Below the pieces are notes generated by a model. That model ran no database searches. It had not been told where the DNA came from and saw only the letters and a list, made by a program, of their open reading frames with translations. A stretch of DNA of 54,567 bases from a virus, in the IMG/VR virus record IMGVR_UViG_3300043446_001520, positions 1 through 54,567 of that record; one strand, written 5' to 3'. The translations under genes were made by a program, and so were the position numbers. The stretch's first letter is position 1, and the number at the start of each line of letters is the position of its first letter. This document shows positions 1,017 to 52,357 of the stretch, in pieces.

Positions 1017-1215
1017 GAGTATGTCCCTTTTCTCTTAATCCAATGATAAATGACGGTCCGTCATTATCGTAATCAATAACCAATTCTTTATCTGTTTTAC
1101 CAGCATCTAAAAAGCTTGTTGTTGGAATAATAATCTTTTTTTGTTGCTCTAAAATTGCAATCAATATATGATTCAAGCTTAAAGATCCAACTATTTCTTC
1201 TATGTTATCTGTCAT
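985..1215 (-). CDS. Small phage protein with His/Asp-rich C-terminus
   Basis: I do not recognise this 76-residue protein. Its ATG overlaps the TGA of the polymerase gene (ATGA), so translation is probably coupled. The body is acidic and helical at the start (IEEIVGSLSLNHILIAILEQ), has a beta-type middle (KELVIDYDNDGPSFIIGL), and ends in HTHDDGTTHSHD, with four His and three Asp in twelve residues. That tail could bind a divalent metal, but this is a guess. Its position between polymerase and MazG suggests a DNA-metabolism accessory role. Confidence 0.7.
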   Translation of the reverse strand: MTDNIEEIVGSLSLNHILIAILEQQKKIIIPTTSFLDAGKTDKELVIDYDNDGPSFIIGLREKGHTHDDGTTHSHD

Positions 1216-4200
1216 TTTATTTCCTTTACATTTAAGGTTCCATCATCTAATTTTGATAATATTACCTGGCATTTCATTCCTTCACGCATTTTTGCTAATG
1301 CCATTTTATACATTGTTGGAAAAGCAATAACACGAGTTAAATTTTTATTTTTATCTGTCATTACAATGTGTGCCATCATTTTGCCAGCTTTTGTTTTATA
1401 TGGAGTAAAGTTAATTACAAAATATTCATTTTCAGATAAATCATATTCTTTTTTATATAAGTAATCTACAAATAAATCTTTTGACTGTGGCTCTATATCA
1501 CTTACCTTTACATATCTTGCAATTCGGTTATCTCCAACTAAAATAAAATACATTTGATTAGTTTCTATTTGAGTTTGTTCATTATGAAATAGTCCAATGG
1601 AACCTGTTTCATCTACTAGTTCTACTCGTGCCCAGCCATTTCCACGTTTAATATTTTTAACCATACCAAACATTACAAATGAACCAAGTTCATCAAAGTC
1701 CTCAATTGGTTTGCATTGCGCCTTAATTCTTGGTGGCAAATCTAAATTAAATGTAGGAATGCCTAAGTATTCGTAGTAGTTTTCTTTTTCGTTTCCTTGG
1801 CGTGGATTATCGTCAAAAGCAGCACCACCAATGGCATTGAGAGCAGAGATAGCCCTGCTGTTAATACCGCTACCTTTTTTAGACGACTTTTCAATAAGGT
1901 CTGCATAATTTTTAAATGGCCTCTTTTCAATAATCTTATTAGCAATACTATCTGAGATAAACTTTACCTCTGCTAATCCAAACACGATAGCATCTCCTTT
2001 TAATGAGAAATAAACATCTGACTCATTAACATGGGGAAGTCTAATTTTTAGACCCAATCTTTTTGCTTCAATTAGATACTCTGTTCTTGTGTCTTTATTA
2101 CCTTCGTTTTTAAGAAGCGAAAACATAAACTCAAGAGGGTAATAAAACTTAAGCCAAGCTGTATAATAAGAAAGCATAGAGTAAGCAACAGCATGAGAAC
2201 GATTAAAAGAATAACCTGCGTGAGCTTCAAAATCATGCCATAGGTGTTGCGCTTCTTTTTTACTAATATGCTTCTCAGCGCCAGAAATAAACTGATCTTT
2301 GAACTGGTCGAATTCTTTTGCATCTTTCTTCTTTCCAATAATTTTTCGAACCTTATCTGCTTCAGACCAGGTCATTCCTCCAAGATGTACGCAAGCTTGC
2401 ATAACCTGCTCTTGGTAAATAATTACACCATAGGTATTTTCAATAAATGGCTGCATAATTGGATGCACATACTTAATTGCTTCATTTCCATGCTTTCTAT
2501 TAATATAAGAAGCACCTACAGTATTCATAGCACCTGGACGAACTAAAGCATTTGATGCTGCAAGATCTTCAAATGTGCTGACACCCATCTTCATAAGTAG
2601 GTTTGTGTATGGAGTTGCTTCCGCCTGAAACACTCCCTTTGTGTATCCTTCGCTTAACATTGCATAAACTTTTTTATCATCTAATGGAATTTTAGACAGG
2701 TCTAGTTCTTTTCCATGTCTAGACTTAATTGATTTAAGAGTATCGGAAATAACAGACAAGGTCTTTAAGCCCAAAGCGTCAAGCTTTATAAGACCTATGT
2801 CTGCTACTGTATCCATATCATAGGCGACAACTGGGATTCTCCCAGAAACTTTATCTTGTGCATCTTCACGAGATTCAACTGGAGCATATTTTCTAATATC
2901 ATCTTTTGCTACAACAACACCTGCAGCATGAACACCGACAGATCTAATCTTTCCACGTAATCTTTCTGCAAGCCATGTTACCTCTGGATATTTAGCTCTA
3001 AACTCTTTTGTATTTGGAGATTCAACAAAGTCTTCAAATGTATCTACTGACTTCAAAGCCTTATTTACTTCTCCAAGTGGGACCATAAATACACGAGCAG
3101 CATCACGAACCACACCCTTATCTTTGAAATAAGTAAATGTAGAAATAGATGCAACGTGCTTAAACTTCTTTTTTAAATAATCTTTTACTTCTTTGCGGCG
3201 ACGGTCTTCAAAGTCTGTATCAATATCAGGAAAGTCATTACGCTCTGGATTAATAAAACGGAAAAACAGTAAGTCATATTTAATTGGATCTACGTCTGTA
3301 ATTCCAAGGGTATAACAAACTAATGAACCTGCAGCAGAACCACGACCTGGGCCAACCATAATACTATTTTCTTTAGCCCAGTTAATCATATCTGCTACAA
3401 CTAGAAAATAAGAGGCAAATTTCTTATCTTTAATTACTTCTAATTCTTCCTGTAACCTGTCAGCATAGACCTTATCCTCTGCCAGACCTAGGCGTTTAAG
3501 GCCTTCTGAGGCCATCTCAGCCAGTTTCTTGTCAGCATTAGTCTTAGGGACTGGAAGTAGGTCTAGACCCTGGTAGAAGTCATATTCTCCAATTTTAGAG
3601 GCTATCTCCATTGTATTGTCAAATATATCTGTTCTATTTATGCCAGCATCTTTAAAGTCTGCTTCAATTTCTTGTCGTGTTTGAATAAATAAATTATAGT
3701 CCTGAAATGATATTCTACGATCAGGATATAAATAATTAAATCTATCTAGCATGTCCTTCATGTTTCTGGACATGTCAAAATCTGCTTCTTTGTCTGCTTT
3801 AGGGCTTGTTGATAAAATCAACATAGCCTCTTCTAATATTCTATCTTCACCTTTAGCAAAGTGGGCATCTCCTGTTGCCACCGCTTTAATTTTTAATTCA
3901 TCTGCTAATTCTAAAAGCTTTGCGTTTATTTCTTTCGGGTTGTGGGATTGTACCTCCACATAAAAATCTTCGCCAAAAGTTTGTTTAAAGTCTTTGAGTA
4001 CAAGTTTTGCTTCTGAGAATTCCTGGCGTTCAATAGCTTTACTAATAAGGCCATTAAGGCATCCGCTAAGTACAATAATACCTTCTGCATATTCTTTTAA
4101 TATCTCTCTATCAATACGTGGTTTATGATAAAACCCTTCGTTCCATGCTAACTCCTGTAGCGTATGGATATTATTTAATCCCTTTTGATTCTTAGCCAAC

Positions 4201-4478
4201 AAAATAATATGGTTGTATGCTTGAATACTTTTATCTGTTTTTGATGAACGATCAAATCTATCTGTTGGGGAAATATATGCTTCTACCCCAAGTATAGGCT
4301 TGATGCCAATTTCTTTACATGCTTTTTGCATATCACGGTGTGATGATAAAGTTCCGTGATCAGTAATTGCTAATGCAGTTTGTCCCGCATCTTTTGCGGC
4401 TTGTGCAAGTTCGGCAGGAGAGTTAAGCCCATCCATAAGTGAATAATATGAATGCACATGTAAGTGTGTAAATGACAT
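1212..4478 (-). CDS. dnaE: DNA polymerase III alpha subunit (family C, DnaE type)
   Basis: This 1088-residue replicative polymerase has close to bacterial DnaE length. The N-terminal PHP domain keeps its metal ligands: HLHVH (5-9), TDH (39-41), GVEAY (64-68) and GDAHF (203-207). The polymerase core has GPGRGSAAGS (376-385), the catalytic PDIDTDF (417-423) and the third aspartate in IKLDALGLKTL (D567). A C-terminal OB-fold-like segment contains GNGWARVELVDETGSIGLF. It should copy the phage genome. Neighbouring SSB, primase and helicase genes make a nearly complete replisome; no sliding clamp or separate exonuclease is seen. The intact PHP site may provide proofreading. The gene begins 24 bases after the SSB gene; an AAGGCGGAGAG sequence precedes the ATG. 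Confidence 0.97.
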   Translation of the reverse strand: MSFTHLHVHSYYSLMDGLNSPAELAQAAKDAGQTALAITDHGTLSSHRDMQKACKEIGIKPILGVEAYISPTDRFDRSSKTDKSIQAYNHIILLAKNQKGLNNIHTLQELAWNEGFYHKPRIDREILKEYAEGIIVLSGCLNGLISKAIERQEFSEAKLVLKDFKQTFGEDFYVEVQSHNPKEINAKLLELADELKIKAVATGDAHFAKGEDRILEEAMLILSTSPKADKEADFDMSRNMKDMLDRFNYLYPDRRISFQDYNLFIQTRQEIEADFKDAGINRTDIFDNTMEIASKIGEYDFYQGLDLLPVPKTNADKKLAEMASEGLKRLGLAEDKVYADRLQEELEVIKDKKFASYFLVVADMINWAKENSIMVGPGRGSAAGSLVCYTLGITDVDPIKYDLLFFRFINPERNDFPDIDTDFEDRRRKEVKDYLKKKFKHVASISTFTYFKDKGVVRDAARVFMVPLGEVNKALKSVDTFEDFVESPNTKEFRAKYPEVTWLAERLRGKIRSVGVHAAGVVVAKDDIRKYAPVESREDAQDKVSGRIPVVAYDMDTVADIGLIKLDALGLKTLSVISDTLKSIKSRHGKELDLSKIPLDDKKVYAMLSEGYTKGVFQAEATPYTNLLMKMGVSTFEDLAASNALVRPGAMNTVGASYINRKHGNEAIKYVHPIMQPFIENTYGVIIYQEQVMQACVHLGGMTWSEADKVRKIIGKKKDAKEFDQFKDQFISGAEKHISKKEAQHLWHDFEAHAGYSFNRSHAVAYSMLSYYTAWLKFYYPLEFMFSLLKNEGNKDTRTEYLIEAKRLGLKIRLPHVNESDVYFSLKGDAIVFGLAEVKFISDSIANKIIEKRPFKNYADLIEKSSKKGSGINSRAISALNAIGGAAFDDNPRQGNEKENYYEYLGIPTFNLDLPPRIKAQCKPIEDFDELGSFVMFGMVKNIKRGNGWARVELVDETGSIGLFHNEQTQIETNQMYFILVGDNRIARYVKVSDIEPQSKDLFVDYLYKKEYDLSENEYFVINFTPYKTKAGKMMAHIVMTDKNKNLTRVIAFPTMYKMALAKMREGMKCQVILSKLDDGTLNVKEIK

Positions 4479-5220: not shown

Positions 5221-5229
5221 ATTATATCA
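5221..5229 (-). promoter_or_regulatory. Extended -10 promoter for the SSB gene
   Basis: The minus strand reads TGATATAAT and overlaps the TGA stop of the primase gene. The -35 candidate at 17 bases (AATACA) is weak. The predicted leader of about 45 bases carries a good Shine-Dalgarno. Confidence 0.55.
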
Positions 5230-6225
5230 TGGATTCCAAGTTCTGTATTCTATGTCGGATACAGCATTTTTAATACATGCAACAATTTCCTCATCAGTCA
5301 TATCGCCTGCATCTTTGGCATTGTTAGGGTATATCTTACCATAACTATGCGAAGCCCACAAGATATCTTTATTGCGAAGTTTATTTGCAATATTCATTCC
5401 CAGTTCCCGTCCAGCTTGGTCAGAATCAGTCATGAGTATGATTCTAGTAAAATATCTATTGAGCAAATTTAAGTTATCGTGTGATATATGACCACCAAGA
5501 GTGGCAACAATATTTGGAAATCCAGCCTGATGCACACGAATAGCATCAAATGTTGATTCTACAATAATCACCTGATTACCAATTTTTTTAGCACGGTGAA
5601 TATTAAACATAGTTTTACTACGTGGAAGATTTGTACTATTTTTAAATTTTTTTTCAGATATAGATCTACCAACTAATCCTACAGGAATGCCGTCTGGGCT
5701 ATGAACTGGGACAGTGACCATACCCATGTTGGCAGAATATCCTAATTTAAAGTAATGCATTGATTCATCATTTATTCCACGGTGTCTAAAATATTCCTGA
5801 GCATGTGGATTTGCACCTAAATTATTATAAAGGTCATCTAATGTTTGTTGAGGAAATTCTACAAAGTCTGGTTTTTCTTCAAACATGTCTTTGAGAACTT
5901 CATCAAAATTTTCTACTGATTCTGCTTCACGAGCAGCAATATATCTAATTGCCTCAAACTCATTCTTATTTAATATTTTCTTTACTAATTCAGATAAAGT
6001 TCCAGCTTCTCCACAAGAAGGATTAAAACAAATATATGCACCTTTTTCACGGCTTACGCTAAATGAAGATGTATTTCTATTAGAATGAAATGGACAGAAG
6101 CATAGGAAATCATTAGATGTTTCTCCAACTATTTCTATGCCAAGCTCTTTAATTACTGACTTAACATGTGCTGGTGAGTAGACCGTGGAATCAACTTTCC
6201 TTGTGTCCAGCCCTCGTATTGCCAT
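5227..6225 (-). CDS. DNA primase, CHC2 zinc finger plus Toprim
   Basis: I start this 332-residue protein at the ATG at 6225 (MAIRGLDTRK), preceded by GAAGAGAG. The longer frame to 6276 lies inside the upstream gene and adds 17 unpromising residues. Domains in order: a zinc-binding domain with C44-x2-H47 and C67-x3-C71 (CPFH; CFNPSC), a linker, then Toprim with E223 (IVESTFDAIR) and D267/D269 (LMTDSDQAGR). Primases of this type make RNA primers on the lagging strand and act with the DnaB-like helicase two genes upstream. At 332 residues it is shorter than bacterial DnaG (about 600), without an obvious C-terminal helicase-interaction domain. It overlaps the preceding 99-residue gene by about 70 bases. 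Confidence 0.9.
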   Translation of the reverse strand: MAIRGLDTRKVDSTVYSPAHVKSVIKELGIEIVGETSNDFLCFCPFHSNRNTSSFSVSREKGAYICFNPSCGEAGTLSELVKKILNKNEFEAIRYIAAREAESVENFDEVLKDMFEEKPDFVEFPQQTLDDLYNNLGANPHAQEYFRHRGINDESMHYFKLGYSANMGMVTVPVHSPDGIPVGLVGRSISEKKFKNSTNLPRSKTMFNIHRAKKIGNQVIIVESTFDAIRVHQAGFPNIVATLGGHISHDNLNLLNRYFTRIILMTDSDQAGRELGMNIANKLRNKDILWASHSYGKIYPNNAKDAGDMTDEEIVACIKNAVSDIEYRTWNP

Positions 6226-6452
6226 GCTCTCTTCTTTCCCACATATACACCATGGATAGTCATTAAGAACTTCCATGTCTCGCCTGTGAATTCTACCGAA
6301 AATGCTGGGTCTATGTCAAGTACCCGAACATATCCTTTAGACCTCATATCTTGAGTTAATAGACTTTCATATTGTGCCCTAATCCTGATCATGTCAGAAT
6401 CATCTAAAAACTCAACCCTTATTTGAAATCGTTTAATTGTTTTGTGAGTCAT
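6153..6452 (-). CDS. Conserved-type small protein between helicase and primase
   Basis: I do not recognise this 99-residue protein. It looks like a compact alpha/beta fold (basic KTIKRFQIRVEF, helix SDMIRIRAQYESLL, strands VRVLDIDPAFSVEF and WKFLMTIHGVYV) with a basic, Trp-containing end (KKRAWQYEGW). The frame stays open across the overlaps at both ends: 20 bases into the helicase gene and about 70 bases with the primase start. Its place between the two suggests a replication accessory factor, without direct evidence. Confidence 0.6.
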   Translation of the reverse strand: MTHKTIKRFQIRVEFLDDSDMIRIRAQYESLLTQDMRSKGYVRVLDIDPAFSVEFTGETWKFLMTIHGVYVGKKRAWQYEGWTQGKLIPRSTHQHMLSQ

Positions 6453-7683
6453 TCTTCATATCTGGAAGGTTTTCATAAATCGGATTAATAACACCACGAT
6501 TAATATCCCAATCAAGATAGAAGTCAAACTCATGACCATGACGGTTCTTTCTGCTTACAACTTCAATCATATTGGTTCCTGGATATCTATGAATAGCCAT
6601 AGCCATATCAGCATCATATTCAATAGCTTTAGACCACGCTACTTGGCTCATCATAGGAGGCTCATCTTGGTCAGAGATATCGTCTGCTGTTGCAGCAGTA
6701 ATATCAATGACTGGAATATTGTTTGCTACTGCAAGCAATTTAAACTCACGAGAAATATTTCTATTTCGTTCTACTTCAGAATGGCTACGCTTATTATCAT
6801 TAAACAACTGATGATAATCAAGGATAACCAAGTCTGGTTTATGTTGATCAATTTTACCCTGAACTGTAGCAGGAGTAACTTCAGCCGTACCTTCATTAGA
6901 AACCAAGATAAAGCTATTCTTTCCTTCAAACTTCTTTTTACCCCACGACTTAAAATCATCTATGTTAATATCTCCTTTTGATAAATCGCTTGCACGAAAT
7001 AATCCTGAACCCAACATTGTATAGATGCGGTCACGCATATTCTCTGGAGACATTTCAAGAGATATAATCATTGGCTTAAATCCCTGCTCCCATGCTTTAC
7101 AAGCAAGATACGAAGTAAACCAAGTTTTACCACGACCTGGCCATCCGATAGCAACAATTAAATGTCCTGGAGCCATTCCTGTTGGATATGCTTTATCAAT
7201 TGCATCAAAACCTGTTAGAATTCCTGGACTACCGCCCATGACTGCAGAACGCTCTTTAACTGAAAGGAAATGGTTTTCTGCAGATTGAATATCTACAACA
7301 TCTAGGTCACGAACATTATTTGTAAACTTAGATAACCCTGCAAGCTGGGATTGCATATTAGCCAAAACTCTGGCTGCTGCATCTTCTTTTAAAGCAGAAC
7401 CAGATTGAATAATTACAGACTTAAGCTTATTGGTTAGATATTCATTCTTAAGCTTATCTAAATAGTAACCAGTTTCAGCTTTAGTAGTTACTGGCTCAAA
7501 ATCTTTATGTCTTTCCATAAGTACGCCAACTTCTGGCACACCTTTAAACTTATAGTAATATGATTTTAGGCTCTCCCATATATCACGATGAGATGTAAAT
7601 ATTTCATCAACATTGTCTGCAAGTAGTGTACTAATATCTTTATTTTTGCATACTGCTGAAATTAACTCTGCTTCTGTATTCAT
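6433..7683 (-). CDS. Replicative DNA helicase, DnaB-like
   Basis: This 416-residue protein has a helical N-terminal domain (about 1-120) and a RecA-type ATPase domain. Walker A is GWPGRGKT (180-187), the catalytic glutamate is in ISLEM (E210), Walker B is VILDY (286-290), and a basic SRKNRHGHEF element near the C-terminus fits the arginine-finger region. DnaB helicases unwind the fork as hexamers and recruit primase. The ATG overlaps the stop of the preceding 105-residue gene (ATGA). It is a little shorter than bacterial DnaB (about 450-470), as is common for phage members. Confidence 0.93.
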   Translation of the reverse strand: MNTEAELISAVCKNKDISTLLADNVDEIFTSHRDIWESLKSYYYKFKGVPEVGVLMERHKDFEPVTTKAETGYYLDKLKNEYLTNKLKSVIIQSGSALKEDAAARVLANMQSQLAGLSKFTNNVRDLDVVDIQSAENHFLSVKERSAVMGGSPGILTGFDAIDKAYPTGMAPGHLIVAIGWPGRGKTWFTSYLACKAWEQGFKPMIISLEMSPENMRDRIYTMLGSGLFRASDLSKGDINIDDFKSWGKKKFEGKNSFILVSNEGTAEVTPATVQGKIDQHKPDLVILDYHQLFNDNKRSHSEVERNRNISREFKLLAVANNIPVIDITAATADDISDQDEPPMMSQVAWSKAIEYDADMAMAIHRYPGTNMIEVVSRKNRHGHEFDFYLDWDINRGVINPIYENLPDMKNDSQNN

Positions 7684-7997: not shown

Positions 7998-8190
7998 TCT
8001 TTAATTCCTCTTCAACTTCACGAGTTTTTTGAATAAGCTTTTCTTCTACAAATTTATATACACGTTCGGTGGCGGTATCAGCATTTTCGCCATCACGAAC
8101 CCAGTCCTCTATGCCTACACCAATCTTAATGCTTTCATAATTTCCTAAATTACGAGTAAACGAAAGGTCTACCTTGACTCTTGTTTCCAT
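7987..8190 (-). CDS. Small conserved phage protein (LSFTRNLGNYES type)
   Basis: I start this 67-residue protein at the ATG at 8190, whose bases overlap the TAA of the upstream gene (TAATG) and which follows GGAAGGCGG. A longer frame to 8205 is unlikely. The N-terminal strand pair VKVDLSFTRNLGNYESIKIG, a GENADTATERV turn and a C-terminal helix VYKFVEEKLIQ resemble a small conserved family I have seen beside replication genes in phages of Gram-positive hosts; its function is not known. It overlaps the next gene by 11 bases. Confidence 0.7.
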   Translation of the reverse strand: METRVKVDLSFTRNLGNYESIKIGVGIEDWVRDGENADTATERVYKFVEEKLIQKTREVEEELKSGK

Positions 8191-8672
8191 TATTCCGCCT
8201 TCCATACTGGTACGAACTCCGAATCGTTAACCTTAGTATACAATATAATGTTGTGTTTGAGAAGAGCTTTTAATTCATTTTTATTTGGCAATTCTCTAAT
8301 ATATCCAGCATCAATAATAAATTGATGTATGTCCAGAATGTCCGATTCGCTTAACATATATTTATTCCATTTAGATTCAGGATTACTTATTGGATAAATA
8401 AACTGAGGTTTTTTAATTTTACCATCTAAAATATAATTTTCAATAGTAACTTTATGTCTATTTAAAATTTTTGCAGCCTGCACAACAGAAAAAGCGTTTT
8501 CCATATATTTTTCTACCTGAGCATAAGAATATAAAACTCTTTTTTTGTCTGGGTAGCACCAAGCGATAACCTCATCCCTTGCCCTAGATGCTTTTATTGT
8601 TTTATGTATTTTTTCGTTTAAGAAGAAATACTGTAACTTTTTGTGTGTTCGTTGTCTTTTTGCTCTAGCCAT
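8190..8672 (-). CDS. Helix-turn-helix DNA-binding protein
   Basis: This 160-residue protein has a basic N-terminus (ARAKRQRTHKK), a small domain ending in IAWCYPDKKRVLYSY, then a MerR/excisionase-like helix-turn-helix: AFSVVQAAKILNRHKVTIENY (about 59-79) followed by a wing-like GKIKKPQFIYPI. Such HTH proteins are found next to replication genes in many actinophages. They may regulate early genes or act at the origin; the role here is not shown. The ATG at 8672 overlaps the zinc-ribbon gene by 55 bases and its nearest GGAAG touches the start codon. The N-terminal block nevertheless looks native, so I keep this start. Confidence 0.75.
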   Translation of the reverse strand: MARAKRQRTHKKLQYFFLNEKIHKTIKASRARDEVIAWCYPDKKRVLYSYAQVEKYMENAFSVVQAAKILNRHKVTIENYILDGKIKKPQFIYPISNPESKWNKYMLSESDILDIHQFIIDAGYIRELPNKNELKALLKHNIILYTKVNDSEFVPVWKAE

Positions 8673-8806
8673 CTTCCAAACGCACTCGTATCTTTATTGA
8701 TCATCCATCGTCTTCCACATAGGATGCAAAACAGTTCCATATGAAGTTTTTGAGAAAATACTCTATCGATAAAAACCCTACCGTTGCATCTTTGACACTT
8801 CATCAT
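8618..8806 (-). CDS. Small zinc-ribbon protein
   Basis: This 62-residue protein has two CxxC knuckles, C4-x2-C7 and a second pair in LFCILCGRRW (about 27-30), spaced about 20 residues apart, a typical zinc ribbon. The rest is short and basic. The start overlaps the metallophosphoesterase stop (ATGATGA), so either of two adjacent Met codons (8806, 8803) may be used. Phage zinc ribbons of this size often bind nucleic acid or host proteins. The target is unknown. Confidence 0.7.
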   Translation of the reverse strand: MMKCQRCNGRVFIDRVFSQKLHMELFCILCGRRWMINKDTSAFGRWLEQKDNEHTKSYSISS

Positions 8807-9603
8807 AATTTAAATACCTTTCCATCTACCACACATGAGTAGTCTGGAGCTACGTGAATCATCTGAATATGTGGGTAATCATTTACAATGTGTGCAATTG
8901 CAAAACCTTTTTGCCAATCGTGATGTTGAGTATATTTCATTCCTGGACCCTTTTCATCACACATATGTCCAATTTCATAACCACGAAGAGTTTCACCTTC
9001 ACCATTATTTCTTAATTCATATGTAACCAAATGTGATGCAATTCTGTGTGAATGTCCACGGATTAATGAGACCTGTAGATCTTCCATGTCTTTTCTGACT
9101 GAACCTGTTGCAGCAATTGAAATACCATGATGAACATGTATATCTCCAAAACGGCGCTTAGGTAGTTCATTATAATGAATATATTCATAGCCCAATGAGT
9201 CTAATGACCACAACGTTTCTGGCGTAACCTGCGAAATATATTCTGGAAGCTTTTTATCTAGATAATCAAATATTCGAACATCATGGTTTCCCAACGCTGA
9301 AAATAATTGTGCATCTGGAAGCATTTCACGAGTCTTTGCATAAAAGTCTCTTGCTCCCTTTGCTTCATTTCGCATCATAGGAACAATTAAATCTGCGCTA
9401 TCTGTTTTATGCAAGTTTAAAAATTCTGCTGAACGACCCTCAGTATATTTGCTATAACATGCCTGATCGTCGGTATCTCCAAGATAATCTACTACGTCTG
9501 GCTTAAACCATTTCATAACCTTAAACCATAGCTCAATCATCTTGTCATCTTGATACGGGAACTGCTGATCTGACGATAGCATCCACTTTAAATCGTTTGT
9601 CAT
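8803..9603 (-). CDS. Calcineurin-like metallophosphoesterase
   Basis: The 266 residues carry the family's five blocks in order: SSDQQ (10-14), YLGDTDDQ (40-47), ALGNHD (103-108), IHVHHG (155-160) and IRGHSHR (181-187). The first block has Gln where the canonical DxH has His, a substitution also seen in other phage members; the remaining metal ligands are present. Substrates range from phosphoproteins to nucleotides and nucleic acids; placement at the head of the replication operon suggests a DNA or nucleotide role. It is the first gene after the 9618-9682 regulatory region and has an AAGGA Shine-Dalgarno. Confidence 0.88.
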   Translation of the reverse strand: MTNDLKWMLSSDQQFPYQDDKMIELWFKVMKWFKPDVVDYLGDTDDQACYSKYTEGRSAEFLNLHKTDSADLIVPMMRNEAKGARDFYAKTREMLPDAQLFSALGNHDVRIFDYLDKKLPEYISQVTPETLWSLDSLGYEYIHYNELPKRRFGDIHVHHGISIAATGSVRKDMEDLQVSLIRGHSHRIASHLVTYELRNNGEGETLRGYEIGHMCDEKGPGMKYTQHHDWQKGFAIAHIVNDYPHIQMIHVAPDYSCVVDGKVFKL

Positions 9604-9617
9604 TTAAATCCTTATGT

Positions 9618-9642
9618 AAAAAAAGTCACGGGGTCGTGACTT
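9618..9642 (-). terminator. Intrinsic terminator between tail and replication genes
   Basis: On the minus strand a perfect 8-bp stem, AAGTCACG with CGTGACTT (9635-9642 and 9623-9630), and a 4-base loop are followed by seven T (9624-9618). It lies in the 75-base gap before the metallophosphoesterase gene. It would stop late transcription from the tail genes, and also any transcript from the promoter just upstream of it. Confidence 0.85.
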
Positions 9643-9654
9643 GAGTTGAATAAA

Positions 9655-9682
9655 ATTTTAGCATATAAATGCTAGTTGTCAA
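9655..9682 (-). promoter_or_regulatory. Near-consensus sigma-70-type promoter before replication genes
   Basis: The minus strand has TTGACA (9682-9677), a 16-base spacer and TAAAAT (9660-9655), with TGC before the -10 making it also an extended -10. The -35 overlaps the stop codon of the last tail gene. The predicted start is near 9648, six bases before the terminator stem. This is the closest match to a consensus -35 in the window. Confidence 0.6.
9659..9674. promoter_or_regulatory. Palindrome inside promoter spacer, possible operator
   Basis: TAGCAT and ATGCTA form a perfect 6-bp inverted repeat around four bases. It fills most of the -35/-10 spacer and reaches into the -10 box. A repressor bound here would block the promoter. 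It could instead be a weak hairpin ending the tail-gene transcript. Confidence 0.4.
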
Positions 9683-10092
9683 TAGCAAATTGCCATGTAG
9701 CTTAAATAAATATTAACCTGTGGCTGATCTTTAGGAAGAAAGCATATAGCAGTAAATCCAGTTGCAGAAGATGTTCCTGTTTGAATATCTACCTGTGGAT
9801 GCCACTTATCTGTATCTGCTTTTCTTGTTGATACTATAATTGATTTAGGTGTTGCTGGCAAAGGTGTAGAAAATGTTACTGGGAATTTGTTTAAAACACC
9901 TGGAGTTAAAGTCCATGCAGTACCCATTGCGCTACCAATAATTGTTTGTGGGTTTGTTGGGGCAGGATTATTAATATTAATAGTATTGCCACCAGATCCA
10001 AATGTTGGTATCTTTGCAGCTAAATTATTTATAGATAATTCTAACTGAGCAAGCTTTGATGCATCAATTGGCTCACCATCATTAAATGCCAT
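9679..10092 (-). CDS. Tail-associated protein, lectin-like C-terminal domain
   Basis: This 137-residue protein opens with FNDGEPIDASKLAQLE, a start seen in many phage tail-tip proteins. It has a short helix and a Gly/Asn/Pro linker (GSGGNTINI), then a beta domain from about residue 65 to the end. Its strands (FPVTFSTPLPATPKSIIVST; TGFTAICFLP; NIYLSYMAICY) resemble the layout of H-type lectin domains, which bind sugars. A cell-surface glycan-binding role is an inference from this weak resemblance and from position at the end of the tail operon. AGGAG precedes the start. Confidence 0.65.
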   Translation of the reverse strand: MAFNDGEPIDASKLAQLELSINNLAAKIPTFGSGGNTININNPAPTNPQTIIGSAMGTAWTLTPGVLNKFPVTFSTPLPATPKSIIVSTRKADTDKWHPQVDIQTGTSSATGFTAICFLPKDQPQVNIYLSYMAICY

Positions 10093-10893: not shown

Positions 10894-10921
10894 ATTATAT
10901 CATTTAGCATCAATTAGTCAA
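10894..10921 (-). promoter_or_regulatory. Promoter TTGACT-N16-TATAAT with extended -10
   Basis: The minus strand has TTGACT (10921-10916), a 16-base spacer ending in TGA, and TATAAT (10899-10894). Five of six -35 bases and all -10 bases match consensus. It overlaps the stop of the 70-residue gene and drives the gene starting at 10879. Confidence 0.7.
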
Positions 10922-31798: not shown

Positions 31799-31803
31799 GC
31801 AGA

Positions 31804-31828
31804 AAGCCCCCGAAAAATTCGGGGGCTT
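31804..31828 (-). terminator. Intrinsic terminator after tail-tube gene
   Basis: A perfect 11-bp stem, AAGCCCCCGAA with TTCGGGGGCTT, has a 3-base loop and is followed on the minus strand by TTTCTGCTTGT. It lies 21 bases after the tail-tube stop codon. The stem is very GC-rich against an A+T-rich background. Confidence 0.85.
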
Positions 31829-31848
31829 CCGACATTTAGTTGGTTATA

Positions 31849-35836: not shown

Positions 35837-35862
35837 GCCCCTCAAAAATTAATTTGAGGGGC
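35833..35862 (-). terminator. Intrinsic terminator after major capsid gene
   Basis: A perfect 10-bp stem, GCCCCTCAAA with TTTGAGGGGC (35837-35846 and 35853-35862), has a 6-base loop. On the minus strand TTTTCATTTT follows. It lies 28 bases beyond the capsid stop codon. Confidence 0.85.
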
Positions 35863-50830: not shown

Positions 50831-51205
50831 TTATACATATTCTACAACTTCCCACCGACAAGCACCTGTTGCTGTTAATGTAGTTGAATTAGTTAATGAT
50901 ACACCATATTCCGCTGAAAATAAAGATGTTGATCCTCCAGAAATAGTCCTTGTTCCAATAAAATTAGGGAAAGATCCAGAGCCCATAGATCCATTTGAAG
51001 AAGCTGCTACTGAACCACCGCTTGGAGTTAATGTTCCAGATTCATTGCTATTACTTGCAACTGTTCCAGCGGAACCAGTTGAAAAAGATCTAGCGAATGA
51101 TTTATCTACATTTACTGATGAAATTGTAATTGTTCCAGCAGACGCAGCAACACCCCTTTGTATTGATTTAATTTTTGAAGTTAAAGGAGGATAGGTATTA
51201 ATCAT
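50831..51205 (-). CDS. Paralogue 4 of the IKSIQRG tandem family
   Basis: This 124-residue protein is the last of four tandem paralogues. It has IKSIQRGVAASAGTITISS near the start, a Gly/Ser middle (FSTGSAGTVASNSNESGTL), TRTISGG, and ends LTATGACRWEVVEYV. The IKS-QRG segment is seen at the start of small beta-type virion proteins in diverse phages. Probably an exposed homo- or hetero-oligomeric decoration or fibre protein; no enzymatic motif. GGAG lies eight bases before the ATG, which overlaps the upstream stop. Confidence 0.75.
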   Translation of the reverse strand: MINTYPPLTSKIKSIQRGVAASAGTITISSVNVDKSFARSFSTGSAGTVASNSNESGTLTPSGGSVAASSNGSMGSGSFPNFIGTRTISGGSTSLFSAEYGVSLTNSTTLTATGACRWEVVEYV

Positions 51206-51591
51206 TATAAATACTCCACAACTTCATATCTACAAGCACCTGTTGCAGTAATTGTTGTTGAATTTACTATATAGGCTCCATATTCTTGCACAGTAATAGC
51301 TGTAGTTCCTCCTGAAAATGTTCTTGTTCCAAAATAGTTTGCGAACGTTCCACCACCAGCCACGGCATTTCCACCACCGCTTGGACCAGCTATGCTACCT
51401 CCTGTTGGATTGAGTTGTCCAGATTCATTACCACTAAGTGAAACTGCTCCTCCAGATCCATTGGAAAAAGATTTAATAAAAGACTTAGAAGTATCAATTG
51501 AAGATATTGTTATGCTTCCAGCAGAAGCAAATGAGCCCCTTTGAATTGATTTAATTGGAGATTGCACAGTTGGAAATATTGATGTACCCAT
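51205..51591 (-). CDS. Paralogue 3 of the IKSIQRG tandem family
   Basis: I start this 128-residue protein at the ATG at 51591 (MGTSIFPTVQSPIKSIQRGS), which overlaps the stop of paralogue 2; the longer frame to 51615 lies in that gene. It shares ASAGSITISS, a KSF-x-x-SF-S/G-G-S-G motif, FGTRTFSGG and STTITATGACRYEVVEYL with its neighbours, but has a longer Gly loop (GPSGGGNAVAGGG). The loop region between the conserved ends is the most divergent, as expected for exposed surface. Confidence 0.75.
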   Translation of the reverse strand: MGTSIFPTVQSPIKSIQRGSFASAGSITISSIDTSKSFIKSFSNGSGGAVSLSGNESGQLNPTGGSIAGPSGGGNAVAGGGTFANYFGTRTFSGGTTAITVQEYGAYIVNSTTITATGACRYEVVEYL

Positions 51592-51977
51592 TATATATGT
51601 TCTATAACCTCCCAATTACAAGCACCTGTCACAGTTATAGTTGTTGAATTAATTAAGTAAGCCCCATATTTTGCTGAAACAAAAGAGTTTGTATTAGGTA
51701 TTGTTGCTGTTATGCTTCTTGTACCAGAATAGGTTGGAAATGATCCATTTTGATTTAGGCTTCCGCTTGGAGCACCAACTGCACCACCAGCTGGTGTATA
51801 AACACCTTCAGTAGTTCCAAGTCCCGCTACTGTTCCAGAAGAGCCAGTAGAAAAAGAATTTACAAAAGATTTAGAAATATCCACCGATGATATTGTTACG
51901 TTGCCAGCAGAAGCTGCAGTACCTCTTTGAATTGATTTTATTGGAGAAGATGTTAATGGATATAAATTAGATGCCAT
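51591..51977 (-). CDS. Paralogue 2 of the IKSIQRG tandem family
   Basis: This 128-residue protein keeps SPIKSIQRGTAASAGNVTIS, SFSTGSSGTV and STTITVTGACNWEVIEHI. It has an altered middle (GVYTPAGGAVGAPSGSLNQ) and SITATIPNTNSFVSAKYGAY in place of the TRTFSGGT segment. The start overlaps the upstream stop (GGAG upstream). It belongs to the same virion-surface family as the three neighbours. Confidence 0.75.
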   Translation of the reverse strand: MASNLYPLTSSPIKSIQRGTAASAGNVTISSVDISKSFVNSFSTGSSGTVAGLGTTEGVYTPAGGAVGAPSGSLNQNGSFPTYSGTRSITATIPNTNSFVSAKYGAYLINSTTITVTGACNWEVIEHI

Positions 51978-52357
51978 TATGCATACTCCACAACTTGCCA
52001 GTAACAGGCTCCACTTACAGTTATAGTTGTTGAATTCAAAATATAGGCTCCGAATGACCCTGATGTTAAACTAGTTGTTCCGCCAGAAAATGTTCTTGTT
52101 CCTGTAAGATTTGGATAGGATCCGCTTCCTGGATTAAAGTTTGGTGAAAATATAGCCATGTTGCCACCACTTGGAGTATAAGTTCCGCTTGTACTACTAT
52201 TTGTTGCTATTATCCCACTTGATGAATTTGAAAAAGAATTAACAAATGCTTTAGAAACATCTATAGATGATATTGTTATATTTCCAGAAGAGGCAGCAGA
52301 ACCTCTTTGCACAGACTTAATTAAAGAAGCTTGCTCTGGAAATACTGATAGTGCCAT
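51977..52357 (-). CDS. Paralogue 1 of the IKSIQRG tandem family
   Basis: This 126-residue protein is the first of the array. It starts ALSVFPEQASLIKSVQRGSA, keeps AASSGNITISS, FSNSSSGIIATN, GTRTFSGGTTSL and STTITVSGACYWQVVEYA. The Val in IKSVQRG and other changes show long divergence. The nearest Shine-Dalgarno-like GGAG is rather far (about 15 bases), so translation may depend on coupling to the gene just upstream. Confidence 0.75.
   Translation of the reverse strand: MALSVFPEQASLIKSVQRGSAASSGNITISSIDVSKAFVNSFSNSSSGIIATNSSTSGTYTPSGGNMAIFSPNFNPGSGSYPNLTGTRTFSGGTTSLTSGSFGAYILNSTTITVSGACYWQVVEYA

Follow-up and report, generated by a model that had tools for sequence, protein, structure and literature searches.

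A few bacterial leaders are known in which a terminator lying very close to the transcription start causes attenuation. Among phages, the pR' promoter of lambda and phage 21 is strong and constitutive, with a transcript that ends early at a leader terminator, and the Q protein, which controls the late genes, needs both a Q-binding element and a sigma-dependent pause. In the greA leader (GraL) of Escherichia coli, 19 nt precede the terminator, about two thirds of the transcripts stop there and the rest become mRNA (PMC6829880). Two further proteins, AlpA and GafZ, alter RNA polymerase from elements situated between the -35 and -10 boxes (PMC7969949, PMC11150451). AlpA of Pseudomonas aeruginosa acts in this way at the alpB promoter, where the terminator stands just before the first gene (PMC7969949, in which the location of the Q element is also stated), and GafZ of Caulobacter acts at the GTA promoter, where a palindrome occupies the region between -35 and -10 and the terminator comes after the first gene (PMC11150451).

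The locus considered here lies in the window, that is, the whole stretch of viral DNA analysed (IMG/VR record IMGVR_UViG_3300043446_001520, 54,567 nucleotides), and its features are collected in Table 1. A first-pass annotation had read from the minus strand a TTGACA-N16-TAAAAT promoter with an extended -10 and an intrinsic terminator starting about six nucleotides after the predicted start, and both are present where it placed them, the promoter at 9682-9655 with a spacer of 16 bp. On this strand the promoter is followed by the stem-loop AAGTCACG-ACCC-CGTGACTT (9642-9623), a T run, AAGGA and the ATG at 9603. The T run consists of seven consecutive T at 9624-9618, the first two of them paired in the stem; with a start near 9648, the stem would begin at about +7 and the T tract would end at about +31. 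The upstream gene ends within the -35 box, at its TGA stop codon (9681-9679). Judged by its boxes, the promoter looks like an ordinary host promoter of the sigma-A type.

Table 1. Position of the features of the locus and of the junctions used for comparison
Feature	Position	Strand	Remark
-35 box, TTGACA	9677..9682	-	identical across all 52 distinct aligned promoters
Extended -10, TGC-TAAAAT (-10 itself 9660-9655)	9655..9663	-	relatives mostly TGT-TACAAT
6+4+6 inverted repeat, TAGCAT-TTAT-ATGCTA	9659..9674	.	right arm is the extended -10, left arm in the variable spacer
Predicted transcription start, about 7 nt past the -10	9648	-	predicted from promoter anatomy
Weak intrinsic terminator: 8-bp stem and 4-nt loop (9642-9623, -9.7 kcal/mol), T tract to 9618	9618..9642	-	
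Shine-Dalgarno-like AAGGA, 5 nt ahead of the ATG at 9603	9609..9613	-	
Metallophosphoesterase (phrog_221)	8803..9603	-	first gene of the replication operon
Predicted DNA-binding protein (HTH protein): N-terminal SH3-like barrel (14-57) and MerR-like winged helix (58-123)	8190..8672	-	candidate regulator only
DnaB-like replicative helicase	6433..7683	-	replication operon
DNA primase	5227..6276	-	replication operon
DnaE-like DNA polymerase III	1212..4478	-	replication operon
Last gene of the upstream small-gene/tail operon, unknown function	9679..10092	-	ends inside the -35 box
Promoter of the upstream small-gene operon, TTGACT-N16-TATAAT	10894..10921	-	no terminator after it
Comparison terminator (-17.5 kcal/mol), then extended -10 promoter	35837..35862	-	usual order
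Comparison terminator (-18.9 to -22.2 kcal/mol by stem length taken), then extended -10 promoter	31802..31830	-	usual order

The site had been described as the junction of the tail and replication operons. This holds for the downstream side, where the metallophosphoesterase is followed by the genes of the HTH protein, the DnaB-like helicase, the primase, SSB and the DnaE-like polymerase, but on the upstream side the immediate neighbours are small genes of unknown function that come after the minor tail genes. Annotated phages offer no near DNA match; at the protein level the closest annotated relatives are Rhodococcus phages (Trinavirus, Weaselvirus) and Streptomyces phages belonging to the Stanwilliamsviridae, from which we infer an actinobacterial host (freshwater actinobacteria). 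The metallophosphoesterase is itself distant kin (about 22-28% identity) of mycobacteriophage proteins, some of which are annotated as recombination directionality factor. Elsewhere in the window, four tandem gene-sized repeats, 63-75% alike and spaced by about 380 bp, stand among small genes at 50831-52322. A replication origin at the promoter/terminator locus was considered and discarded, since the GC-skew trend does not change there in the relatives G001 and G005.

Taken alone, the promoter is not unusual: 71 promoter-like sites were found against 78 expected in 20 kb, and shuffled windows contain 2.5 strong promoters each, so that strong promoters as such are to be expected. The combination of a strong promoter and a terminator no more than 20 nt away occurs once in the window and in none of 150 shuffled windows. 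Moreover, at two other junctions of the window (Table 1), as well as at comparable junctions in three long relatives, the terminator comes first and the promoter second. Stems in this usual order range from -16 to -22 kcal/mol and are about twice as stable as that of the replication promoter, whose values are -9.7 kcal/mol in the window and, in two relatives, -10.1 and -11.8. The site at the replication operon is thus special in its weak stem and its reversed order; in the Streptomyces phages the leader stems are strong.

Relatives were fetched with the metallophosphoesterase and the preceding gene as queries. Within a first set of 58 non-redundant upstream regions, TTGAC together with a -10 was found in 53, the hairpin in 50, the 16-bp spacer in 49 and the TG in 47. 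A joint set of 100 such regions contains the promoter in 83 cases and the promoter followed by the hairpin in 76, of which 68 have a T-rich tail (at least 4 T in the 8 bases after the stem), although these counts overstate independence, because the viral-contig sequences are mutually related, many of them closely. Pairing in the terminator helix reaches 96% over 30 sequences, 6 of 9 pairs have changed on both sides (compensatory), and the stem structure lies far above slid controls. Seven Streptomyces phages likewise have a promoter and then a stable hairpin ahead of the metallophosphoesterase, in a sequence unrelated to that of the window. In the Streptomyces phages Bmoc and Coruscant and the Rhodococcus phages Grayson and Trina, a -10 followed by a hairpin, again in unrelated sequence, stands before the HTH gene instead, meaning that the hairpin accompanies the promoter and is not tied to the tail boundary. 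Isolates that carry the cassette include Comrade, Annadreamy and Sham, which infect Streptomyces griseus. At a strict cut-off there is essentially one promoter-terminator cassette per genome, located before the metallophosphoesterase, and the notion of many cassettes per genome was therefore dropped. Two weaker look-alikes were seen in G001, at 65422 and 77775.

The pattern has exceptions. The U tract is poor or absent, though the leader hairpin is kept, in L024, L044, L149, L150, L162, L163, Annadreamy and Blueeyedbeauty. In several regions that lack the promoter-hairpin unit, the metallophosphoesterase is directly preceded by an HNH endonuclease gene or by some other small gene; where an HNH gene lies between the tail gene and the metallophosphoesterase (L009, L011, L012, L014, L059 and L022), the terminator is missing, the first five of these relatives retaining the TTGACA promoter and L022 having a different one. 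Persistence in close relatives had been set beforehand as the test of the arrangement: the promoter and the terminator are kept, whereas the exact palindrome is lost. The elements, their order, their conservation and their covariation can be read off directly, and they support the claim that a terminator lies immediately in the path of the promoter's own transcript, an arrangement predicted in dozens of relatives. Taken together, conservation, covariation, recurrence and the reversed order elsewhere indicate that the predicted promoter-proximal terminator is under selection, and it probably limits the amount of replication message made.

As to how it might do so, the transcript beginning at 9648 has a single predicted fold with one hairpin only, while RNA folding suggests that transcripts arriving from upstream would form an extra hairpin just before the terminator. 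With about 6 nt of RNA ahead of the stem, neither an alternative antiterminator fold nor a leader peptide nor a riboswitch can operate on the promoter's own transcript; this, the single predicted fold and a search of the leader against Rfam, which gave no match, led to the rejection of a classical attenuator or riboswitch. Sequestering of the ribosome-binding site in upstream transcripts was rejected as well, as the bases involved differ between the two folded sequences and are not conserved.

Attenuation or antitermination, as proposed in the first-pass annotation, nevertheless fits a terminator that is both immediate and conserved. We favour, with about an even chance of its being correct, a leaky attenuator of the replication operon, in which a strong promoter carries its own weak terminator close behind the start; this model is ranked first on account of the retained T tract, a stem that is weak by the standards of its genome and a unit that accompanies the promoter when it lies elsewhere. 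According to this model, RNA polymerase would initiate near 9648 and transcribe a leader of some six bases, followed by the 8-bp hairpin and the U's. At about +30 it would either stop, freeing an RNA of about 30 nt, or read on into the genes for the metallophosphoesterase, the HTH protein, the helicase, the primase and the DNA polymerase. The fraction that reads through would set the level of replication message, and the same hairpin would also halt transcription from the tail/small-gene operon. Initiation, termination, the read-through fraction and the purpose of the arrangement are what we infer from the sequence elements, and a search of the literature found no published transcriptome of a relative; Rhodococcus phage WC1, described as temperate, was not used. 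The lineages that keep the hairpin with a poor U tract, the strong stems of the Streptomyces phages and the HNH relatives lacking the terminator count against the leaky attenuator; in particular, a pure terminator would not allow for a hairpin kept with a poor or absent U tract.

The 6+6-bp palindrome had been taken to fill the spacer and to serve as a repressor site. It is present, but only its left arm and loop lie in the spacer, the right arm entering the -10 by two bases. A search for further copies, which the annotation had called for, found the exact sequence once in the 54,567-base record, and the idea of many operators of one regulator was given up accordingly. Across 52 distinct promoters TTGACA, ATATG and the -10 vary little or not at all, and spacer positions 7-16 carry 0-0.7 bit. 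The repeat takes a 5-bp form in L016 and a shifted form in L188/L191, and in most relatives the extended -10 pairs with a downstream arm, ATGTTACA-n-TGTAACAT, the loop being variable and some of the changes compensatory. This downstream arm is found in 54 of 74 distinct promoters; among the 20 others, five, including that of the window, have an upstream arm of at least 5 bp against 0.71 expected, in a test made post hoc and on related sequences. These figures are suggestive of some inverted repeat being favoured around the -10. However, the partner arm shifts in side and distance and the loop varies in length among relatives, a geometry that does not fit a rigid operator, and with spacer positions 7-16 nearly random a fixed repressor site finds no backing.

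Other inverted repeats were observed at promoters of the group. About 70 bases before the metallophosphoesterase of L149, L150, L152, L153 and L154, the promoter spacer and the -10 lie inside a long inverted repeat (TACCCCAGTT-N9-AACTGGGGTA in L150 and L153), and some of these relatives have a small hairpin without a U tract after that promoter. L099 (3820-3900) and L123-L128 have a second promoter, TGCTATAAT, directly after the metallophosphoesterase, flanked in several phages by an inverted repeat (TGCTC...GAGCA). Finally, in the Streptomyces phages L099, L100, L123, L124 and L128, promoters ahead of the first of the small genes that follow the last minor tail gene have an 18-19 bp spacer with a dyad that differs by genus, e.g., CAAGAC-CTAGT-GTCTTG or ACCCCT-AG-AGGGGT, and recalls operators of the MerR type; MerR-like or other HTH proteins are among the products of these phages.

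The HTH protein of the window may bind DNA. An AlphaFold2 model built on 44 sequences (mean pLDDT 83) predicts an SH3-like barrel and a MerR-like winged helix, and HTH_17, which stays below the cut-off in the window protein, matches in 26 of the 44 members. The best VIA match of the model is a MerR regulator (Z 7.0 over 58 residues, rmsd 1.5), and the N-terminal barrel finds only generic SH3-like, Tudor or KOW matches (best Z 5.7). A role in binding RNA polymerase is not proposed on these grounds, and the CarD match (Z 4.6) falls within this generic SH3-like background.

The terminator might be overcome by a phage protein of the Q, AlpA or GafZ type, binding at the promoter, loading onto RNA polymerase and carrying it through, so that the replication operon would open only once the antiterminator was present. 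This is possible, though rather unlikely. The terminator lies downstream of the promoter and before the genes to be controlled. The layout is like that of the AlpA targets, with an element between -35 and -10 and a terminator just ahead of the first gene (PMC7969949), and like that of GafZ in having a palindrome between -35 and -10 (PMC11150451). So short a leader leaves no room for a switch made of RNA alone, inverted repeats that take in the -10 recur as described above and a MerR-like predicted DNA-binding protein is encoded in the operon. Yet the spacer positions are almost random, and the presumed regulator is encoded downstream of the very terminator to be overcome, so that some leak would be needed anyway. 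Three long relatives gave no match to the antiterminator families Phage_AlpA, NusG and Phage_antitermQ (PF05930, PF02357, PF06530), which is weak evidence, as these families are diverse. It is a long shot that a novel antitermination system gates the replication operon throughout a large lineage of actinophages (Stanwilliamsviridae, Rhodococcus relatives and freshwater viruses), with a lineage-specific protein at the -10 inverted repeat, for which the SH3-like/MerR-like protein is one candidate, escorting polymerase through a terminator about 30 nt from the start.

Readings that dispense with regulated termination of the promoter's own transcript fare as follows. In nearly every lineage the stem starts no more than about 10 nt from the predicted start, as it would if a 5' stem-loop shielded the replication message from decay with no termination intended, and the hairpins with little or no T tract (L024, L044, L150, L163, Annadreamy) keep this reading alive; it is nonetheless unlikely, given that a T tract unneeded for protection is kept in 68 of the 76 promoter-hairpin leaders and that stem stability is low in the freshwater set. 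The terminator also sits at the end of the tail/small-gene operon, whose transcripts would carry the extra hairpin just before it, and might thus act as an insulator that stops only those transcripts and lets local ones pass, the hairpin being too near their start. This we regard as quite unlikely, for the other borders in the same genomes place the terminator before the promoter, which is the simple way, the unit stands inside the replication operon in Bmoc, Coruscant, Grayson and Trina, and the stem is weak for a border terminator. A strong promoter with an immediate terminator would yield the terminated RNA of about 30 nt abundantly, but that it is a trans-acting regulator, in line with the earlier suggestion of a very short RNA with its own function, is very improbable: loop and stem letters vary freely with pairing kept by compensation, there is no shared single-stranded seed and Rfam holds no match. 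Nor did a switch between early and late transcription emerge from the analysis, the promoter being of an ordinary sigma-A-like kind, the upstream operon having a promoter of its own (10921), the five HNH relatives keeping the promoter without the terminator and L022 having a different promoter and no terminator.

If the leaky attenuator is true, it would constitute a conserved control point of phage DNA replication across a widespread group of actinophages, including isolates that grow on laboratory Streptomyces. Thanks to the opposite order of terminator and promoter at other borders, the site offers a clean comparison within one genome, and it allows a direct test of how early after initiation an actinobacterial RNA polymerase is able to terminate, and of any relief by a phage factor.

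When compared with known systems, the locus resembles the greA leader in having an intrinsic terminator within tens of nucleotides of the start, between the promoter and the first gene. It differs in that the greA case has been measured and includes feedback by GreA, while here a phage replication operon stands behind a still shorter predicted leader. With the AlpA and GafZ promoters it shares a terminator downstream of the promoter and an inverted repeat reaching between -35 and -10, but its spacer sequence is not conserved, and the family searches in three long relatives turned up no antiterminator. The strong promoter with an early leader terminator recalls pR' of lambda and phage 21, which serves late genes and not replication genes. 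Lastly, hairpins next to an early promoter are a trait of the HK022 put RNA, and upstream transcripts would indeed form two adjacent hairpins here; in contrast to put, the promoter's own transcript has one hairpin, a terminator, in place of two adjacent stem-loops.
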